In this document: positions 10,205-60,520 of the stretch, one piece after another
Layout: the number at the start of each line of letters is the position of its first letter
Numbering within the stretch: position 1 is the stretch's first letter
NCBI RefSeq assembly: GCF_002909375.1
Contig: NZ_PPXD01000005.1
Coordinates: 1 to 64,000, forward strand
Origin: Cryobacterium zongtaii
Lineage (GTDB): Bacteria > Actinomycetota > Actinomycetes > Actinomycetales > Microbacteriaceae
Length of the DNA stretch: 64,000 nucleotides
Direction: 5' to 3'
Made by a program: the position numbers and the translations under genes
Notes under the pieces: generated by a model
Seen by the model: only the letters and a program-made list of their open reading frames with translations
What the model was told of the DNA's origin: nothing
Database searches by the model: none

Positions 10205-11385
10205 CAGCTGGAGTACGCGCTGTTCTCTTCGACGTAGTCGTGGGTGAGGTCGTTGGTCCAGATCGTGGCGCCCACGGTGCCGGCGTGCAGGTCGATGACC
10301 ACCGAAACGGCGCGCGGGGTGAGGTCGACCAGCTCGCGCGGCTGGTCAGGCTCCCCCGCCGTGCAGACCTGGATGCCGTTGATGGCCACATCGATGCCAT
10401 ACGGGTCGAATGCCGCGTCGGCCTCGGGGATGGTGCCCACCGCGGCGAGCACCCGGCCCCAGTTGGGGTCGTTGCCGTAGATCGCGGCCTTGAACAGATT
10501 GCTGCGCGACACGGCGCGGGCCACCGTGACGGCCTCGGTTTCGGACGCGGAGTTACGCACCGAGATGGCCACATCGTGCGAGGCGCCCTCGGCGTCGCCC
10601 TGAAGCTGCAGGGTCAGGTCGCGGCACAGGTTGGTGAGCGCGGTGGTGAATTCTTCGGGGTCCGCGTCGACGCCGCTGGCGCCGGAGGCCAGCAGGCTGA
10701 CGGTGTCGTTGGTGGACATGCAGCCGTCGGAGTCGAGCCTGTCGAAGGTGACCCTGGTGGCTTCCCGCAACGCGGCATCCAGCTGTGCGGAGGACAGGAC
10801 GGCGTCGGTGGTGATCACGACGAGCATGGTGGCCAGGCCGGGGGCGAGCATCCCGGCGCCCTTGGCCATCCCGCCGATGGTCCAGCCGGCCGGGGACACC
10901 TGGGTGGCCTGCTTGGGCCGGGTGTCGGTGGTCATGATCGCCTGCGCGGCGGCGAGGCCGGCGGCGGCGGATGATGCGGCGGCGTCCTTGAGGGCCACGC
11001 CGGCGTCGAAGACGCCCGCGGTGATCTTGCCGAGGTCGAGCTGCTCCCCGATCAGGCCGGTGGAACAGACCAGTACGTCGCCGGAGGAGACCTGGAGCTG
11101 TTCGGCGACGGCCTCGGCCGTGGCGTGGGTGGTCTGGAAGCCGATGCTGCCGGTGTAGCAGTTGGCGCCGCCGGAGTTCAGGACGATGGCGCTGACGCGG
11201 CCGTCGCTCATCACCTGCTGGCTCCAGATGATCGGGTTGGCCTTGCACCGGTTGCTGGTGAACACCGTCGCGGCGTTGGCGAGCGGGCCGAGGTTGGCGA
11301 CGATGGCCAGGTCGAGGCCACCGGACTTCTTGAGGCCGGCGGTGACGCCGGCGGCGGCGAATCCGGCGGGGGCGGTGACGCTCAC
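10204..11385 (-). CDS. argJ: Bifunctional glutamate N-acetyltransferase / ornithine acetyltransferase
   Basis: Transfers the acetyl group from N-acetylornithine back to glutamate; this gives the cyclic arginine pathway, consistent with no argE or argA here. The 393-residue protein contains the autoproteolysis site in [15 protein letters not shown] (nucleophilic Thr of ATM, about residue 181), the point where ArgJ precursors split into alpha and beta chains. The open frame extends further upstream, but the GTG at 11385 overlaps the argC stop as GTGA and gives the usual N-terminus ([13 protein letters not shown]). Whether it is mono- or bifunctional is not decidable from sequence. Confidence 0.95.
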
Positions 11386-12425
11386 GGGGCAACTCCATTC
11401 GTGCTGAGACCCCGGGTTTCGGGCAGCCCGAGGGCAATGTTGGCGGACTGGATGGCGGCGCCGGCGGTGCCCTTGACGAGGTTGTCGACGGCGGTGACCG
11501 TGACCACCCGGCCGGCGGCTTCGTCGATCGCGAGGCCGATGAGCGCGGTGTTGGCGCCGAGAACGTCGGCGGTACGCGGGAACTGGCCGGTCGGCAGGAC
11601 GTGCACGAACGGTTCGTCGGCGTAGAGGGATTCCCAGGCGTGGCGCACGGCGGCGGCGCTGGTGCCGGGTACCAGTCGGGCCGTCGAGGTGGCGAGGATG
11701 CCGCGCGACATCGGCACGATCACCGGGGTGAACGACACGGTGGGCCCGGTCGCGCCGGCCCAACGCAGGCTCTGCTGGATCTCGGGGATGTGCCGGTGGC
11801 TGCCGCCGACGGCATAGGGGTTGGCGGAGCCGAGGATCTCGGCGGCGAGGTTGGGCACCTTGAGGCTCTTGCCGGCGCCGGAGGGGCCGACGGCGAGCAC
11901 GGCGACGATGTCGGCCGGTTCGATCACGCCCGCGAGGATGCCGGGGGCCAGGGCGAGCGCGACCGTGCTGGCATTGCAGCCGGGCGCGGCGATGCGGCGG
12001 GCGCCGATCAGCCGGTCACGTTGCCGGCCGCCGGCGACGGGCAGTTCGGGCACACCGTATGCCCAGGCGCCGAAGTAGTCGCCGCCGTAGAACGCGGACC
12101 AGTCGGCCTCACTCTCGAGACGGTGGTCCGCGCCGCAGTCCACCACGAGGGTGTCGGCACTCAGTTGGGCGGTCAGTGCCCCGGATGCGCCGTGCGGGAG
12201 GGCGAGGAAGACGACGTCGTGGCCGGCCAGGGTGGTCGCATCCGTGTCCGCCAGCACGAGGTGGGACAGTGAGCGCAGGTGTGGTTGCACGTCGACCAGG
12301 CGCTGGCCGGAGTTGCTGTGCGCGGTGACCGTGCGCACCTCGAAATCGGGGTGAGCGGCCAGCAAACGCAGCAGCTCACCGCCCGCATACCCGCTGGCGC
12401 CCGCAACCGCTACCGAAAAGACCAT
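11382..12425 (-). CDS. argC: N-acetyl-gamma-glutamyl-phosphate reductase
   Basis: NADPH-dependent reduction of acetylglutamyl phosphate to the semialdehyde. The 347 residues begin with the nucleotide fold [18 protein letters not shown] (6-23) and carry the active-site cysteine in [16 protein letters not shown] (about residue 150). It is the first gene of the arginine unit; the promoter must lie in or next to the upstream repeat region. I found no convincing ARG box there. Confidence 0.97.
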
Positions 12426-12489
12426 GGACCAAACCTACCCGGACGCCAGCACAGCCCGACAATCGCGCATTGCCCGATGAAGCCGTCGC

Positions 12490-12663
12490 GGCACGCGCAA
12501 GTCCCCGCGGCACGCGGTCGCCCCCAAGGCACGCGGTAGCCCCCACGGCACGCGGTAGCCCCCACGGCACGCGTCGGTGCCGGCGGCACGCGCCAGGCCC
12601 CGCGGCACCCGCAACAACACGTGCCGCCGCGCCCAAGACATGCCACGACTCTCAACACGTGCC
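12490..12663. repeat. 19-bp-pitch GGCAC array, first block
   Basis: Between argC and pheT the sequence GGCAC recurs seven times at exactly 19-base steps (12490, 12509, 12528, 12547, 12566, 12585, 12604). It is followed by its inverse GTGCC/ATGCC/GTGCC at 12621, 12640 and 12659, again 19 bases apart. Bases between the cores vary, except for near-identical neighbouring units such as cggcacgcggtagccccca. The arrangement is two arrays facing each other. There is no credible gene in 12426-12873; short frames on either strand are by-products of the repeats. Confidence 0.9.
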
Positions 12664-12693
12664 GCGACCCTGACCGACCGCGCAAGCTCCGGC

Positions 12694-12808
12694 GGCACGC
12701 TAACCTCCCGCGGCGCGCTAACCTCCGGCGGCACGCGCCAGGCCCCGCGGCACCCGCAACAACACGTGCCGCCGCGCCCAAGACTTGCCACGATGGTCAA
12801 CACGTACC
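12694..12808. repeat. 19-bp-pitch GGCAC array, second block
   Basis: A second facing pair: GGCAC-type cores at 12694, 12712 (GGCGC), 12730 and 12749, then inverse cores at 12766, 12785 and 12804, spaced 18-19 bases. Most of it is a duplication of the first block: 12725-12821 repeats 12580-12676 with five mismatches in 97 bases, at an offset of 145. Confidence 0.9.
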
Positions 12809-12873
12809 GCGACCCTGACCGGCCAGGTCAACCCGGTTGGGCGACAGGAGGCCGGGGCAGGGCCGCGTCGAAT

Positions 12874-15408
12874 CTACTCGCGTAGGTGCGCTCCGTAGCG
12901 GGCGGCGGCGAGCTGCACGCCGGCCAGCTTCGCGTCGCTGGCCTCTGCGGCGGTGAGGGTGCGGTCCGGCGCCCGGAACCGCAGCGCGAAGGTGAGCGAC
13001 TTCTGCCCGGCCTCGATGCCCGTTCCGCGGTAGTCGTCGACCAGCTCGATGCTTTCCAGCAACGTGCCGCTGCCCTCGCGCACGGCCGTGAGCACGTCGC
13101 TGGCCGGAACCTGCACACCCACCACGAGCGAGAGGTCCTGGGTGGCGGCGGGCTTGGTGCCGATCACGGTGGCCTGCAGCTCCCCGGTGACCTGGGCGAA
13201 GACCGCGGACAGGTTCAGCTCGACGACCGCGACCACGGCGGGCAGGTCGGCGCCGCGGGCCACGGCGGGCAGCAGTTCGCCCGCGAAGCCCACCGACAGC
13301 TCGCCGGCATCCGTGCCCACGAACAGCTCGGCGGTGCGGCCGGGGTGCATCGCCTTGTGGGCGCCCTGGCGCACGAGGATCGGCAGGCCGACGGCGAGGC
13401 CGATCTGCGCGACGGCGGTGAGGGCGTCCTGCCAGGATGCGGCGATGGGTGCCTGGCCGGGCTGGTGGCGCACGGTGTTGCCGAGCAGCACGATGCCGGC
13501 GGTGAACGGCTGCGGCGGGATGCCGGCGTTCAGTTTCGCCTCGAGTTCGGCGCTGGGACGCACCGCGGCCGGCGGCACGACGGCGCTGCCGTAGCTGACG
13601 CCCTCGACCGGGCGGAAGACCGAGCCGAGCTCGAAGATCGCCAGGTCGGTCGAGCCGCGGGACAGGTTGCGGTGTGCGATCTGCAGCAGGCCGGGCAGCA
13701 TCGAGGTGCGCATGAACGGGGCCTCGCCGTCGAGCGGGTTGGCGACCTTGATCTGCGGAACCGTGCTGCTGGCGGGGTCGCCGAACAGGTTGTTCGCCTT
13801 CTCGGCGACGAACGGGTAGGCCAGCACCTCGGTGTGGCCGGTGGCGGCGAGCACCGTGGCGACCGAGCGCTTGAGCTGCTGGGTGCGGGTGAGGCCGCGG
13901 CCGGGCGGGGCGATGGGCAGCACAGACGGGATGCGGTCGTATCCGACGATGCGAGCGACCTCCTCGGCGAGGGTCCACTTGTCGGTGAGGTCCGGACGCC
14001 AACTCGGCGCGGTCACGGCCAGGCCGGTCGCGGTCTCGGTCATCGAGGCGCCGATCTCGGCCAGCGAGGTGCGCACCTCCTCGCGGGTGTACTCCAAGCC
14101 GATCAGGCCGGAGACGAAGCCGGTGGGCAGGTCGATCGGGGCACGCTCCGGGGTGGCGTCGTGCAGCGAGCCGAGTCCGTCGGCCACTCCCCCGGCGAGC
14201 TCCTCGAGCAGCTGCACCACGCGGGCGGCGGCCACTGCGGCGACCTCGGGGTCGACCCCACGTTCGAACCGGCGGGACGCTTCGCTGGGCAACTTGTGCC
14301 GGCGGGCGGTGCGCGCGATCGACACCGGGTCGAAGTTCGCGGCCTCGATGAGTACATTGGTGGTGCCGTCGCCGATCTCGGTGGTCGCTCCGCCCATCAC
14401 GCCGGCCAGGCCGATGGGGCCGGAACCGTCGGTGATCAGCAGGTCTTCGGGGTTGAGGGTGCGGGTGACGTCGTCGAGGGTGACGAGCTTCTCGCCGGGC
14501 TGCGCGCGACGCACGACGAGCCCGCCGGTGAGCTTGTCGAGGTCGTAGCCGTGGATCGGCTGGCCGAGTTCGATCATCACGTAGTTGGTGATGTCCACGA
14601 TCAGCGAGATCGAGCGGATGCCGGCCAGCTTGAGCCGGGCGATTAGCCAGGCCGGCGACGGCCGGGTGGGGTCGACGCCGCGCACGACGCGGGTGACGAA
14701 GACGCTCGCGCCGATGCGGTCGCGGATCGGGGCGGTGTCCTCGATCGAGACCGGGAAGACCTCGGTGGACGCTGTCGCGGTGACGGCCAGGGCCGGGTCG
14801 CGGAAGGTCGCTCCGGTGGCGTGCGAGTACTCGCGAGCCACTCCGCGGATCGAGAAGGCGTAGCCGCGGTCGGGGGTGACGTTGATCTCCACGGCGGAGT
14901 CGTCCAGGCCCAGCAGGCTGATCGCATCCGTGCCTACCTCGGGGTCGAGCCCGAGGTCGCCGAGCACCAGGATGCCGGCGTGCTCGTCGCCGAGGCCGAG
15001 CTCACGGGCCGACGCGATCATGCCGTCGGAGACGTGGCCGTAGGTCTTGCGCGGCGCGATCGGGAACGGGCCGGGCAACACGGCGCCGGGCAGGGTCACG
15101 ACGACCTTGTCGCCGACGACGAAGTTGTGCGCGCCACAGACGATGCCGTGAATGGCGGGGCCGCCGTCGGCGGCGAGTTCGCCGTCCGCGGCGACGCGCA
15201 CCTGGCACCAGTTGATGGTCTTGCCGTTGGTCTGCACCTCACCGACGAACTCGAGAACCTGGCCGACCACTATGGGTCCGGTCAGCTCGAAGCGGTGGAT
15301 ATCTTCTTCTTCCAGGCCCACGCTCACCAGGGCGGCGTGCACGGCTTCGGGGGTGGTGCCGGGTTCGAGGTCGACGAATTCGCCGAGCCAGCTCAGGGGA
15401 ACGCGCAT
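12874..15408 (-). CDS. pheT: Phenylalanine--tRNA ligase beta subunit
   Basis: Tetrameric PheRS beta chain; positions tRNA-Phe and, in its B3/B4 region, edits Tyr-tRNA-Phe. 844 residues, normal bacterial size. It begins MRVPLSWLGEFVDL, followed by an EMAP/tRNA-binding domain (about 40-155), the B3/B4 editing domain, B5 domain, the catalytic-like core, and a C-terminal ferredoxin-fold anticodon-binding domain (TFALRFRAPDRTLT). The frame stays open upstream over pheS, but the ATG at 15408 shares one base with the pheS stop (TGATG). Confidence 0.97.
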   Translation of the reverse strand: MRVPLSWLGEFVDLEPGTTPEAVHAALVSVGLEEEDIHRFELTGPIVVGQVLEFVGEVQTNGKTINWCQVRVAADGELAADGGPAIHGIVCGAHNFVVGDKVVVTLPGAVLPGPFPIAPRKTYGHVSDGMIASARELGLGDEHAGILVLGDLGLDPEVGTDAISLLGLDDSAVEINVTPDRGYAFSIRGVAREYSHATGATFRDPALAVTATASTEVFPVSIEDTAPIRDRIGASVFVTRVVRGVDPTRPSPAWLIARLKLAGIRSISLIVDITNYVMIELGQPIHGYDLDKLTGGLVVRRAQPGEKLVTLDDVTRTLNPEDLLITDGSGPIGLAGVMGGATTEIGDGTTNVLIEAANFDPVSIARTARRHKLPSEASRRFERGVDPEVAAVAAARVVQLLEELAGGVADGLGSLHDATPERAPIDLPTGFVSGLIGLEYTREEVRTSLAEIGASMTETATGLAVTAPSWRPDLTDKWTLAEEVARIVGYDRIPSVLPIAPPGRGLTRTQQLKRSVATVLAATGHTEVLAYPFVAEKANNLFGDPASSTVPQIKVANPLDGEAPFMRTSMLPGLLQIAHRNLSRGSTDLAIFELGSVFRPVEGVSYGSAVVPPAAVRPSAELEAKLNAGIPPQPFTAGIVLLGNTVRHQPGQAPIAASWQDALTAVAQIGLAVGLPILVRQGAHKAMHPGRTAELFVGTDAGELSVGFAGELLPAVARGADLPAVVAVVELNLSAVFAQVTGELQATVIGTKPAATQDLSLVVGVQVPASDVLTAVREGSGTLLESIELVDDYRGTGIEAGQKSLTFALRFRAPDRTLTAAEASDAKLAGVQLAAARYGAHLRE

Positions 15409-22695: not shown

Positions 22696-22761
22696 AACTG
22701 TTGCCGAATCGGACATGTGCGTCCGGTGCGCCGGGCACAATTGTCCGGACGGGCAACAGTT
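22696..22761. repeat. Intergenic inverted repeat between DUF1844 and nei
   Basis: AACTGTTGCC (22696-22705) faces GGCAACAGTT (22752-22761) with further partly matched pairs inside (CGGACA, GGGCACAATTGTCCGG). It fills the gap between two convergent genes and may act as a terminator. The inner GGCAC and GGCAA cores are 18 bases apart, recalling the 19-bp arrays elsewhere in the window. Confidence 0.7.
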
Positions 22762-22764
22762 AGC

Positions 22765-23619
22765 TCAGGTTTGGCAGCGCGGGCACCAGTAGGTGACCCG
22801 CTGTTCGAGTTCGCTGCGGCCCAGCCGGCCACTGCGGATGCTTGTGCCGCAGCGCCGGCACGGCTGCCGTTCGCGCCCGTAGACGAAGGTGCGCGCGCCC
22901 CGGCGCAGGTTGCCGGTGGTGGTGCGCTCCGAACGGTCCCGGTTGGCCGTGATCAGCCGGTGCGCCAGCGCGACCAGGCCGTCGACATCGGTGACCTCGG
23001 CGATCGGCCGGGTGGGCAGCAGCCCGCGCAGGAAACACAGTTCGTTGACGTACACATTGCCGAGCCCGGCGAGGTTGCGCTGGTCGCCGAGGGCGACCGC
23101 CACCGGCCGGTCCCCCGCTGCACTGTCTTCGGCAGTGCTGTCTCCGGCCGTGCTGTCTCCGGCCGTGCTGTCTCCGGCTGCGCTGTCCCCGGCTACGCGA
23201 AGCCGGCGCACGGCCTCCGCGGCGTCCCAGTTCGGGCCGAGCAAGTCGGGACCGAGATAGCCGAGGTGCTGCTCGTCCTCCGGGGTGGGAAACAGCTCGA
23301 GGGTGCCCAGCTCGAATCCCACGGCCACCCAGTCCGCGGTCTCCAGCACGATGCGGGCCTGGAATGCGGGCCGCTGCCATTTGGTGCCGTGCCGGTAGAG
23401 GTGCCAAGTGCCCTCCATCTTCAGGTGCGAGTGGATGCTGGTCTCCCCCACGTGCGCCACCAGGTGTTTGCCGCGGCTGATGACCTCGTGCACGGTCTGG
23501 CCGGTCAGGTCGACGGTGGCGAAGGCGGGTACCCGGATGTCGCAGCGCGTGAGGGTGGCTCCGTGCAGGGCGTCGTCGAGGCTGCGGGCGCTGCGGTAGA
23601 CGGTGTCACCCTCAGGCAC
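22765..23619 (-). CDS. nei: Fpg/Nei-family DNA glycosylase/AP lyase
   Basis: Base-excision repair enzyme for oxidised bases. 284 residues: N-terminal catalytic proline-glutamate MPEGDTVYR (Pro after Met removal), helix-two-turn-helix GLGNVYVNE with the DNA-binding Asn, and a C-terminal zinc finger CRRCGT...CPRC. PEGDT is typical of Nei rather than Fpg. An unusual feature is an inserted Ala-Gly-Asp-Ser/Thr repeat tract (about residues 144-170) encoded by 15-bp DNA repeats. Its start lies 8 bases inside lhr; the lhr-nei pair is also known in mycobacteria. Confidence 0.93.
   Translation of the reverse strand: MPEGDTVYRSARSLDDALHGATLTRCDIRVPAFATVDLTGQTVHEVISRGKHLVAHVGETSIHSHLKMEGTWHLYRHGTKWQRPAFQARIVLETADWVAVGFELGTLELFPTPEDEQHLGYLGPDLLGPNWDAAEAVRRLRVAGDSAAGDSTAGDSTAGDSTAEDSAAGDRPVAVALGDQRNLAGLGNVYVNELCFLRGLLPTRPIAEVTDVDGLVALAHRLITANRDRSERTTTGNLRRGARTFVYGRERQPCRRCGTSIRSGRLGRSELEQRVTYWCPRCQT
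23117..23193. repeat. 15-bp coding tandem repeat inside nei
   Basis: About five tandem copies of a 15-base unit (consensus gtgctgtctccggcc on the plus strand) encode the peptide repeat AGDS(T/A) on the minus strand. The unit length keeps frame, so copy number can vary without disrupting the gene. It lies between the N-terminal beta-sandwich and the helical DNA-binding domain. Confidence 0.85.
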
Positions 23620-59154: not shown

Positions 59155-59205
59155 GAGTTCCGGGCTCGTCGCTCGCGGTGGCTGAATCTCGTTATGCGGG
59201 GTAGG

Positions 59206-59243
59206 CGCCGTTATGCGGGTGGCGCGCCACCCGCATAACGGCG
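59206..59243. repeat. 38-bp perfect palindrome, left copy
   Basis: CGCCGTTATGCGGGTGGCG and its exact inverse meet at 59224/59225. An extra partial unit lies on each side at 19-base steps (gttatgcggg at 59191, acccgcactac at 59248). It fills the gap before the AbiEi-like gene. The core is the same as the palindrome at 60437-60474. Confidence 0.92.
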
Positions 59244-59323
59244 CGTGACCCGCACTACGCATCCGAAGGGCCAGCCCGACGCGATGGCTGGGCAATCCTC
59301 CACAGGGGCGCCGGCCCGATGTT

Positions 59324-60361
59324 GTGAACGACCACGGTTCGAGCGCCGTGGCCGCGGCACCCGGCGCCGACACTCGCTGGATGAGCGATCGTCGAGAACA
59401 CCCGTCCTTCCCACCCGAGGTGCTCCTGGCCGCCGACTATCGGCGAGCCCTCGGCGCCGATCTTCGCCTGCGTCGCGGTGCCGAGCGCGGTTACCTGCAC
59501 CGCATCGGCTGGGGCCAGTACTGCCCAGCAGGCGTCTGGGCCGGCCTCGACCGTGACCAGCGGTATGCACTGAGAGTGCGGGCGGCGGCGCTGGCCCGAC
59601 GAGGCGCGTTGCCGCTCTCCCACCAGTCGGCCGCGGTGCTGTGGCAACTACCGCTGCAGGCACCGTGGCCCGATGAGGTGCACTTCCTGGGCCCGCGTGC
59701 AGCCGGCGGCCGCTCGGACCCGGGCATCCGCAAGCACACGGTGGGCTTCGACGCCCGCGATGTGGAGCTGAAAGACGGAGTGCTGGTCACCTCGGTAGCC
59801 CGCACGGTGATCGAGCTCGCGACGATTGTGGACCTCCGGTCGGCGGTCGCCGCGGCCGATCGGGCTCTGGCGGTGGATCGGACCGGTCGCATCCCGCCGC
59901 TCACGAACCGGGCGACCCTGCTCGAAACCTGGCACCGGATGCTGCCGTTCCGCGGTTCGGTGCGGGCGCGCACGGTGATCGACTTTGCCACGCCGCTCTC
60001 GGGCTCTCCCGACGAATCGGGCAGTCGGGTGACGATCGCGCTGGCCGGACTTCCCGAACCCGAGTTGCAGCATCCGTTCGTGATCGAGGACCGCACCGTC
60101 TTTTCAGACTTCTTCTGGCGGGGCGTGCGGGGTGTGGGCGAGAGCGACGGTCGGGTGAAGTACTTCGATCCGGTGCTGCTCGCCGGACGCACCCCGGCAG
60201 AGGTGGTGTACGAGGAGAAGCTCCGCGAGGATGCCATTCGGCTGCAGGTGCTCGGCTTCGTTCGCTGGGACCACGCCACCGGGATGAGCGTGCCGCGGTT
60301 GTCGGCGCGGCTGGCGCGCCTGGGCCTCACCCCGGGGCGCCCCCGGCTGGCCGGGCGCTGA
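59324..60361 (+). CDS. AbiEi-like / PD-(D/E)XK-type orphan protein
   Basis: Up to 345 residues (ATG at 59381 would give 326). The N-terminal part (about 30-175: DLRLRRGAERGYLHRIGWGQY, LPLSHQSAAVLW, VTSVARTVIELATI) resembles the AbiEi-type winged helix and following domain common in actinobacterial orphans. The C-terminal third (GVGESDGRVKYFDP, YEEKLREDAIRLQVLGFVRWD) resembles the core of DUF559/Vsr-like PD-(D/E)XK nucleases, with Glu-x-Asp and Lys in place. No AbiEii partner or toxin gene is adjacent. Function unknown. Both sides carry the same 38-bp palindrome. Confidence 0.65.
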   Translation: MNDHGSSAVAAAPGADTRWMSDRREHPSFPPEVLLAADYRRALGADLRLRRGAERGYLHRIGWGQYCPAGVWAGLDRDQRYALRVRAAALARRGALPLSHQSAAVLWQLPLQAPWPDEVHFLGPRAAGGRSDPGIRKHTVGFDARDVELKDGVLVTSVARTVIELATIVDLRSAVAAADRALAVDRTGRIPPLTNRATLLETWHRMLPFRGSVRARTVIDFATPLSGSPDESGSRVTIALAGLPEPELQHPFVIEDRTVFSDFFWRGVRGVGESDGRVKYFDPVLLAGRTPAEVVYEEKLREDAIRLQVLGFVRWDHATGMSVPRLSARLARLGLTPGRPRLAGR

Positions 60362-60436
60362 GCGGGCCGGTGCGGCGCGGAGCAGGCCGGGCGCGCTCTG
60401 GGCGCGAGGTGGGCGACTCGAGGTATGCGGGTAAGG

Positions 60437-60520
60437 CGCCGTTATGCGGGTGGCATGCCACCCGCATAACGGCGAGGCACCCGCATAACGGCGCGGCACC
60501 CGCATGACGGCGCACGCGCC
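60437..60520. repeat. 38-bp palindrome, right copy, with 19-bp tandem units
   Basis: Palindrome 60437-60474 differs from the left copy only at the two bases each side of the centre (catg versus cgcg). It continues as three direct 19-bp units (60460-60478, 60479-60497, 60498-60516) with GGCACCCGCATAACGGCG core. An inverse partial unit lies at 60421-60436. Confidence 0.92.

Follow-up and report, generated by a model that had tools for sequence, protein, structure and literature searches.

Palindromic intergenic elements with a 19-bp pitch and their pairing with genes for AbiEi-like proteins in Cryobacterium zongtaii and other Microbacteriaceae

The gap between argC and pheT of Cryobacterium zongtaii (12426-12873; both genes lie on the minus strand and their Pfam domains fit the gene names) carries opposed arrays of a short motif, and the question arises what such a layout is and what it belongs to. 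All positions refer to the window, that is the whole stretch of 64,000 nucleotides that was analysed (Table 1). The word GGCAC starts at 12490, 12509, 12528, 12547, 12566, 12585 and 12604, which are seven cores in exact 19-bp steps, just as the original prediction made from the letters alone had described them. They face three inverse cores at the same step, GTGCC at 12621 and 12659 with ATGCC (one mismatch) at 12640 between them, also as described. A second facing set had been attributed largely to a duplication, and the duplication is real (97 bp, 12580-12676 against 12725-12821, offset 145, five mismatches). However, the 19-bp lattice of this second set is imperfect, its direct cores starting at 12694, 12730 and 12749 with an 18-bp unit spacing on one side. 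The remark that the core and its spacing persist while the other bases drift was right.

Table 1 Features of the window
Feature	Position	Strand	Score
argC, host gene; Pfam semialdehyde dehydrogenase domains	11382..12425	-	
Possible relic: outer word of a TTGCCCC-family element found here in close relatives (tentative; from alignment)	12469..12475	-	
Array of the GGCAC family between pheT and argC, made up of two palindromic elements (left arm of the first one expanded)	12490..12821	.	
Expanded left arm of element 1, seven GGCAC cores, 19-bp pitch	12490..12608	+	
Dyad centre of element 1, 22 bp, GGCAC-N12-GTGCC	12604..12625	.	
Right arm of element 1: inverse cores 12640 (ATGCC, one mismatch) and 12659	12626..12663	-	
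Second copy (97-bp duplication); contains dyad centre 2 at 12749-12770	12725..12821	.	
pheT, host gene; Pfam phenylalanyl-tRNA synthetase beta domains	12874..15408	-	
TGTTGCC-family (C) element, convergent gap	22699..22758	.	34.5
TGCGGGT-family (B) element upstream of partner gene	59195..59254	.	46.5
Partner gene: AbiEi-like winged-helix N-terminus and acidic nuclease-like C-terminus, 345 aa, GTG start	59324..60361	+	
TGCGGGT-family (B) element downstream of partner gene	60426..60485	.	47.0
Extra 19-bp units lengthening the right arm of the 60426-60485 element (TRF period 19, 2.9 copies)	60459..60513	+	

The original prediction had allowed for the possibility that shuffled DNA gives equal periodic runs. 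The 448-bp gap was shuffled 5,000 times (first-order Markov); with any pitch from 8 to 39 counted, the longest GGCAC chain had three cores (reached five times) against the seven observed. With any 5-mer at any pitch from 6 to 39 allowed, chains in 1,000 shuffles had at most four. A coding repeat has no support, 19 being no coding period, and the same is true for a CRISPR: near-identical repeats with unique spacers are absent and there is only a recurring core of 5-8 bp with inverted halves. Both had been dismissed before. No Rfam covariance model matched between 12300 and 13000 up to an E-value of 1. The CIRCE operator of HrcA resembles GGCACTC...GAGTGCC, however with a spacer of 9, not 8 as here, and the other word families described below do not contain this sequence; CIRCE was set aside on these grounds. 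A repeat of another kind lies at 23117-23198, where a 15-bp tandem array (about five copies according to TRF) inside a predicted minus-strand gene (22765-23619) is probably a 5-residue protein repeat.

The repeated unit can be deduced from the spacing of GGCAC pairs between genes; a 464-kb sample of this genome, with 47.5 kb of intergenic sequence, was used. Direct lags of 19, 38 and 57 bp occurred 22, 15 and 7 times (window array included) and convergent lags of 17, 36 and 55 bp 5, 8 and 9 times, whereas the commonest divergent lags formed no lattice. Since direct and convergent lags form a lattice and the commonest divergent ones do not, the unit consists of two inward-facing word pairs and spans 60 bp. 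The reversed word CACGG and the word GGCAT gave no lattice in the same DNA, words overlapping the core (CGGCA, GCGGC) show it as well, and GGCGC has lags of its own. The element is a 60-bp palindrome with four copies of one word (19/22/19): each arm contains the word twice, in the same direction and exactly 19 bp apart, and the arms face inwards round a 22-bp centre. The array of the window is such a GGCAC element, whose left arm has grown to seven cores, together with a near-copy 145 bp further on.

A scan for this geometry that is blind to the sequence of the word found 22 matches with a score of at least 32 in 18 of 238 gaps of the 464-kb sample, against none in five shuffled sets. If lag (12-30) and centre (14-32) were varied in a grid, all leading cells lay at lag 19, with a grid median of 0; these data came from this genome, from the argC gap of 57 congeners and from 38 usable stretches (40 taken) of other genera, and neighbouring even centre values represent the same elements in a shifted frame. 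The grid on 19 usable stretches (20 taken) of other families gave no such cells. Single-base autocorrelation was weak, with lag 19 in third place, and exact 7-mers gave lag 19 clearly. GGCAC is one of at least three word families in this genome (G000), the three main ones being GGCAC, TGCGGGT (B) and TGTTGCC (C), with 12 strict-pattern places for B and 9-10 for C. The comparison of the argC gap across congeners, which the original prediction had suggested, revealed a best score of at least 32 in 39 of 57, and the place of GGCAC is taken in many of them by TTGCCCC, AGTCGCC, CGCGCCA, TTCGCC or ACCGCCC with the same geometry. Thus, the geometry is conserved, and the words turn over. Two loci in this gap (L217 of G052 and L225 of G008) are perfect 60-bp palindromes with 30 of 30 pairs.

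Restriction to this one locus would have been the other argument against the original prediction, but such arrays occur at further places of this genome and in relatives. A search for GGCAC at this spacing gave 24 three-core matches with 19-bp pitch at 12 places of this genome, the window included, against one match for the reversed pattern, and a four-core run is present in 12 of 57 congener genomes (own genome included; 43 matches with overlaps counted, against 4 for the control). The complete pattern GGCAC-N14-GGCAC-N12-GTGCC-N14-GTGCC was found in at least 115 stretches within a collection of 84,980 species genomes; the genera among the 80 matches listed are Cryobacterium, Plantibacter, Glaciibacter, Naasia, Compostimonas and Agromyces, all of which we take to be Microbacteriaceae (three were looked up). 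The four-core facing pattern occurred in 8 of 299 genomes of the family, covering 3 of 85 genera. It was absent from all 373 genomes outside the family (a search of 394 included 21 Microbacteriaceae), and the reversed-pattern controls were zero in both cases. The sequence-blind scan gave 9 matches with a score of at least 31 against 3 in the null for the 38 usable stretches of other genera, with strong ones in G059 and G119, and 3 against 1 for the 19 usable stretches of other families. A search of published titles and abstract openings, with most subscription papers and all bioRxiv preprints outside its reach, returned no description of such elements.

Of 129 GGCAC quartets, 57 lie in convergent, 40 in tandem and 17 in divergent gaps, 6 fall within predicted genes and 9 at the edges of loci, and the median distance to a gene 3' end is 34 bp (154 ends). 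This position, together with a within-locus complementarity of 16.0 of 28 non-core pairs where 11.2 are expected (105 GGCAC loci), would suit RNA hairpins that act at transcript ends as terminators or 3' stabilisers, any gene association being secondary. However, the excess complementarity may stem from unit copying, since the facing units in 11 expanded arrays are not clearly more alike than offset units, as symmetric pairing would demand. Mismatches on the sense strand of tandem gaps are not significantly biased towards G-U (151, against 128 A-C; p = 0.19), one-sided arrays keep their cores yet cannot pair along their length, and some elements lie in divergent gaps. In a sample of this genome selected independently of the elements only 7 of 44 convergent gaps contain an element (tandem 9 of 131, divergent 2 of 63), and there is no terminator-like site with a T run between 12400 and 12900. 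As hairpins would also leave the exact 19-bp repeat and the flanking of one gene family unexplained, we regard this function as improbable.

This gene family is the most recurrent protein family beside the elements. All eight members that were found in this way adjoin an element; in relatives, at least four of them (L063, L070, L123, L127) occupy the gap from pheT to argC, and L122 seems to be located elsewhere on its contig. One member is encoded in the window itself, its GTG start having been chosen by a simple codon-usage script of our own making. The original prediction had missed this partner gene, just as it had missed the dispersed 60-bp element with its 19/22/19 layout and the fact that GGCAC is one of many words. 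In 12 of 57 congeners, tblastn detected the partner gene, or a part of it, in the stretch upstream of argC; one more congener has fragments there. The family as a whole is present in 54 of 57 congeners, with up to nine genes per genome and six in this genome, and in 86 of 120 Microbacteriaceae genomes, covering 65 of 85 genera. Of 20 listed genomes without a partner (there are 14 more besides), 12 have a size of at most 2.0 Mb, and G083 is the only genome with a partner match among the listed genomes of that size. Homologues on plasmids were found in two records, both partial, distant and from Tsukamurella; 29 stretches of viral contigs matched a pattern, none of them encoding a relative of the partner.

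A gene was regarded as flanked if an element with a score of at least 31 was present within 1,200 bp (lower-scoring congener set) or 1,500 bp (all other sets). Elements occur on both sides at 30 of 30 top-scoring congener loci, at 13 of 20 lower-scoring ones (4 one-sided, 3 bare) and at 14 of 19 further ones (5 one-sided; the repeated gene L440, identical to that of L377, was removed), in total at 57 of 69, with 9 one-sided and 3 bare. Seven of these 57 genes have weak matches or disagreeing words (L332, L337, L350, L368, L377, L445, L447), and 50 of 69 loci are therefore two-sided with matching words. In other genera 25 of 45 loci, from 17 genera as counted by genome handle, are two-sided; of the remainder, 10 have an element on one side and 10 have none. 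Three loci were dropped from these counts: L409, a broken copy, and L390 and L391, at contig ends, where one and the same element had been scored as both flanks. Genes of similar length, all taken from G000, served as controls for the congeners and were two-sided in 2 of 114 cases (16 one-sided), the two cases, at L181 and L187, being separate from the homologues of these loci; for the other genera, 2 of 216 controls were two-sided (25 one-sided). Fisher tests give p = 1e-32 for 57/69 against 2/114 and p = 2e-20 for 25/45 against 2/216, with loci that are mutually dependent in both comparisons: many congener loci are orthologous to each other, and the other-genera set is nearer to independence. 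The loci were hand-picked from match lists, part of one set having been chosen to check the B and C genes. These data strongly support that element and gene are paired.

The words on the two sides of a gene agree with each other. In three sets the identity between left and right word is 0.80, 0.79 and 0.74, against 0.42, 0.49 and 0.47 across loci (L333 omitted), and none of 1,000 permutations reached the left/right value in any of them. Word identity also follows protein identity, from 0.38 between proteins that are 30-40% identical to 0.74-0.80 at 70-90%, with 0.70 in the top bin (13 pairs). Within this pattern, the paralogue at L183 has TGTTGCC-family elements at both ends and that of the window TGCGGGT elements. 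In all seven genomes with the strict TGCGGGT pattern, a homologue is flanked by TGCGGG or CGCGGG words; the converse fails, B-like flanks also occurring without the strict pattern (G004, G042, G043), since variants such as CGCGGGT escape it. The prediction that a dispersed word should also stand at a partner gene held in one of two genera, in both of which the dispersed word had been found before the genes were examined. In G059 the dispersed word GGCGTA matches the left flank of L426, one of two genes examined there, whereas the right flank scored nothing and the other gene has a different word on both sides; in G119 the dispersed word TGCGCCGG (L315) is present at none of three homologues (L382, L410, L411). 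At L441 (G005) and L444 (G042), partner homologues are accompanied by repeats with 19-bp pitch, e.g. CTGCGAGCACTTTCGCACG (L441), that are not the plain element.

With the gene association in hand, the roles offered by the original prediction can be sorted: a spaced protein-binding site and repeated unit copying were both sensible suggestions, but an insulator or a pure slippage hotspot leaves the association unexplained. Copying does contribute. In the 11 expanded arrays adjacent same-direction units are 0.64-0.70 alike and facing units 0.53-0.55, and since neighbouring units are the most alike, slippage or unequal repair enlarges arrays. One could go further and consider the repeats as selected for nothing at all, with the layout as a copying accident. 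The similarity of neighbours is in line with this, but the same geometry flanks one gene family with many different words in 17 other genera, and slippage alone cannot match words to proteins, so that we attach next to no probability to an entirely neutral origin. At L036 (G032:C1:1759785-1759941), nine consecutive GGCAC cores stand in near-identical 19-bp units (GGCACGCCGCCACGCGAGA); this is a recent expansion, the length of which possibly varies between strains.

The partner proteins are about 320 residues long and combine an AbiEi-like winged-helix N-terminal half with an acidic C-terminal domain of about 110 residues. PF13338 is found in 30 of 67 members (E <= 0.01) and is absent from the window protein, and the PADLOC AbiEi models match all four proteins scanned (window protein: 1.6e-12). 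Using the first structure model, reliable only in part, Foldseek placed AbiEi (6y8q, E 3.1e-3) and Rv2827c (1zel) at the top, both above an E-value of 0.001. The N-terminal half is thus similar to AbiEi by profile and fold, and since AbiEi binds sets of inverted repeats, we firmly infer that the partner protein recognises the words of its elements. In published work (PMC7319586), two 23-bp inverted repeats were bound by AbiEi and four by Rv2827c; neither protein bound the repeats of the other, though a third protein, Rv1044, bound those of AbiEi.

The same work reports that antitoxins of the AbiEi family recognise tandem inverted repeats within the promoters of their own genes (PMC7319586). 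It is therefore possible that the partner protein is simply an autoregulator with operators beside its gene and that the dispersed copies are its regulon or sites of DNA organisation, nothing being mobile and the copies having arisen by ordinary duplication and drift. The upstream element at 29 top congener loci lies in a promoter position, at a median of 126 bp before the matched coding region. However, an operator does not need the second element, which is located at a median of 50 bp downstream of the gene; the preference for convergent over divergent gaps (7 of 44 against 2 of 63, p = 0.031) is the opposite of what promoter sites would show, and the B copies are closely alike over 42 bp between genomes. 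We consider an explanation by operators only unlikely, though it deserves attention.

Two further features separate the elements and their proteins from AbiE systems: the elements lie on both sides of the gene and are dispersed through the genome, and the C-terminal domain is an addition. In an alignment of 67 proteins (that of the window and 66 of 95, those left out being mostly close orthologues; L363, L394 and L409 were removed from the protein set for in-frame stops or short length), E231, R235, P246, Q249, E273, D275, G276, K279, Y280, E298, R301 and R314 are invariant in this domain and D262 is kept in at least 90% of the members. E231, E273, D275, K279 and E298, together with D262, presumably recall a PD-(D/E)XK site, and to the eye the domain might carry such a site of the DUF559/Vsr sort. 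The hypothetical assignment as a nuclease is based on these conserved residues. Beside this set of acidic and basic residues, the likeness to the DUF559/Vsr-like family (PF04480) consists of a weak match in one member (E 0.11), which is below the family cut-off, however, and at E <= 0.01 neither the DUF559 model nor any other nuclease model finds a match among the 67 members. Two structure models, for which few homologues had been supplied, are of poor quality over the C-terminal half (mean pLDDT of 55.5 and 52.1), and a search by sequence for solved structures found none.

The match of the window protein's N-terminus to the PADLOC AbiEi models and the presence of several divergent paralogues in most congener genomes might also indicate defence, with the protein as a DNA-targeting immune nuclease and the elements marking self DNA or restraining the protein. 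But no AbiEii (DUF1814) toxin domain was detected in the five neighbouring proteins that were scanned at two loci; these are ordinary proteins of metabolism and transport or TPR proteins (epimerase, TPR, DapB, 6PGD and permease proteins). This also differs from AbiE systems. A role in defence or self-recognition appears very improbable to us.

A close comparison is offered by REPtrons, in which the TnpA-REP gene is flanked by its REPs and for which spread or rewriting of the repeats by copying has been proposed. Flanking of the gene is seen here as well, at 57 of 69 loci in congeners (with matching words at 50) and at 25 of 45 loci of other genera. Further similarities are short intergenic palindromes in many copies and a repeat and a protein that vary together (PMC8266576). 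However, the partner is an AbiEi-like/nuclease-like protein here, and G000 contains no match to the Y1/HUH transposase model (PF01797), which found its target in 5 of 14 control genomes; accordingly, there is no RAYT in this genome. REPs are described as 20-40 bp long and mostly tagged with GTAG or CGTC (PMC3733652). The element here has 60 bp, and the two words of an arm run in the same direction, exactly 19 bp apart. GTAG or CGTC is not enriched beside it: one of the two, on either strand, lies within 15 bp at 8 of 22 elements and at 270 of 714 intergenic places taken at random. Another group of palindromes that keep their structure while the sequence varies, and that are placed after stop codons, are the attC sites of integrons. 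In contrast to these, the elements described here occur singly between housekeeping genes and the word pairs of an arm have the same direction.

Any explanation has to cover the geometry and its exactness, the dispersal, the gene association, the left-right agreement at most two-sided loci and the co-variation of word and protein. We think it somewhat more probable than not that the array is an overgrown element and that each word family is tied to one AbiEi-like/nuclease-like paralogue, which binds, cuts and spreads its elements. Each paralogue would bind its own word, four times per element, and the pitch of 19 bp would be the spacing of neighbouring packed subunits. The C-terminal domain might nick or cut at the elements, which could then spread, be rewritten or be lengthened through repair or by copying from other copies, and some copies would be enlarged, through slippage of the 19-bp repeats or unequal repair between them, to arrays like that at 12490-12821. 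Comparisons of orthologous gaps between relatives show presence and absence of elements, so that elements do come and go; mobility is the hypothetical part, since neither a clean insertion nor a target duplication was found among the gaps compared. With a chance slightly short of even, we would extend this proposal to a second, independently arisen counterpart of REP/TnpA-REP: winged-helix proteins that carry a PD-(D/E)XK-like domain and occur in sets of several per genome across the Microbacteriaceae, each protein maintaining and spreading its own word family, with a 19-bp ruler that results from protein packing and a protein-to-word code that could be read from the co-variation.

This proposal also allows a speculation about the history of the locus. 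In relatives a GGCAC partner gene lies between two elements in the argC-pheT gap, and the two adjacent elements in the window could therefore be the remnant of a site that has lost its partner gene. The GGCAC-type partner of the own clade is another paralogue, with GGCAC words on both sides at L443 and a less clear picture at L445. In this assembly it looks frameshifted, the homologue on contig C16 (L409, 3763-7305) matching its relatives in two different frames and being followed by a long GC-rich array with 19-bp pitch. The array of the window may therefore be drifting without its partner.

If the proposal is true, bacterial intergenic palindromes that form a large and so far unrecognised class would gain a named partner, and a role would be assigned to a widespread family of proteins, which currently matches AbiEi antitoxin models only. 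The dozens of pairs of protein and word are a natural data set for the joint change of a protein and its site. Moreover, the elements and their proteins would provide a second case in which the ideas on REPs as selfish, domesticated or structural sequences can be tested.
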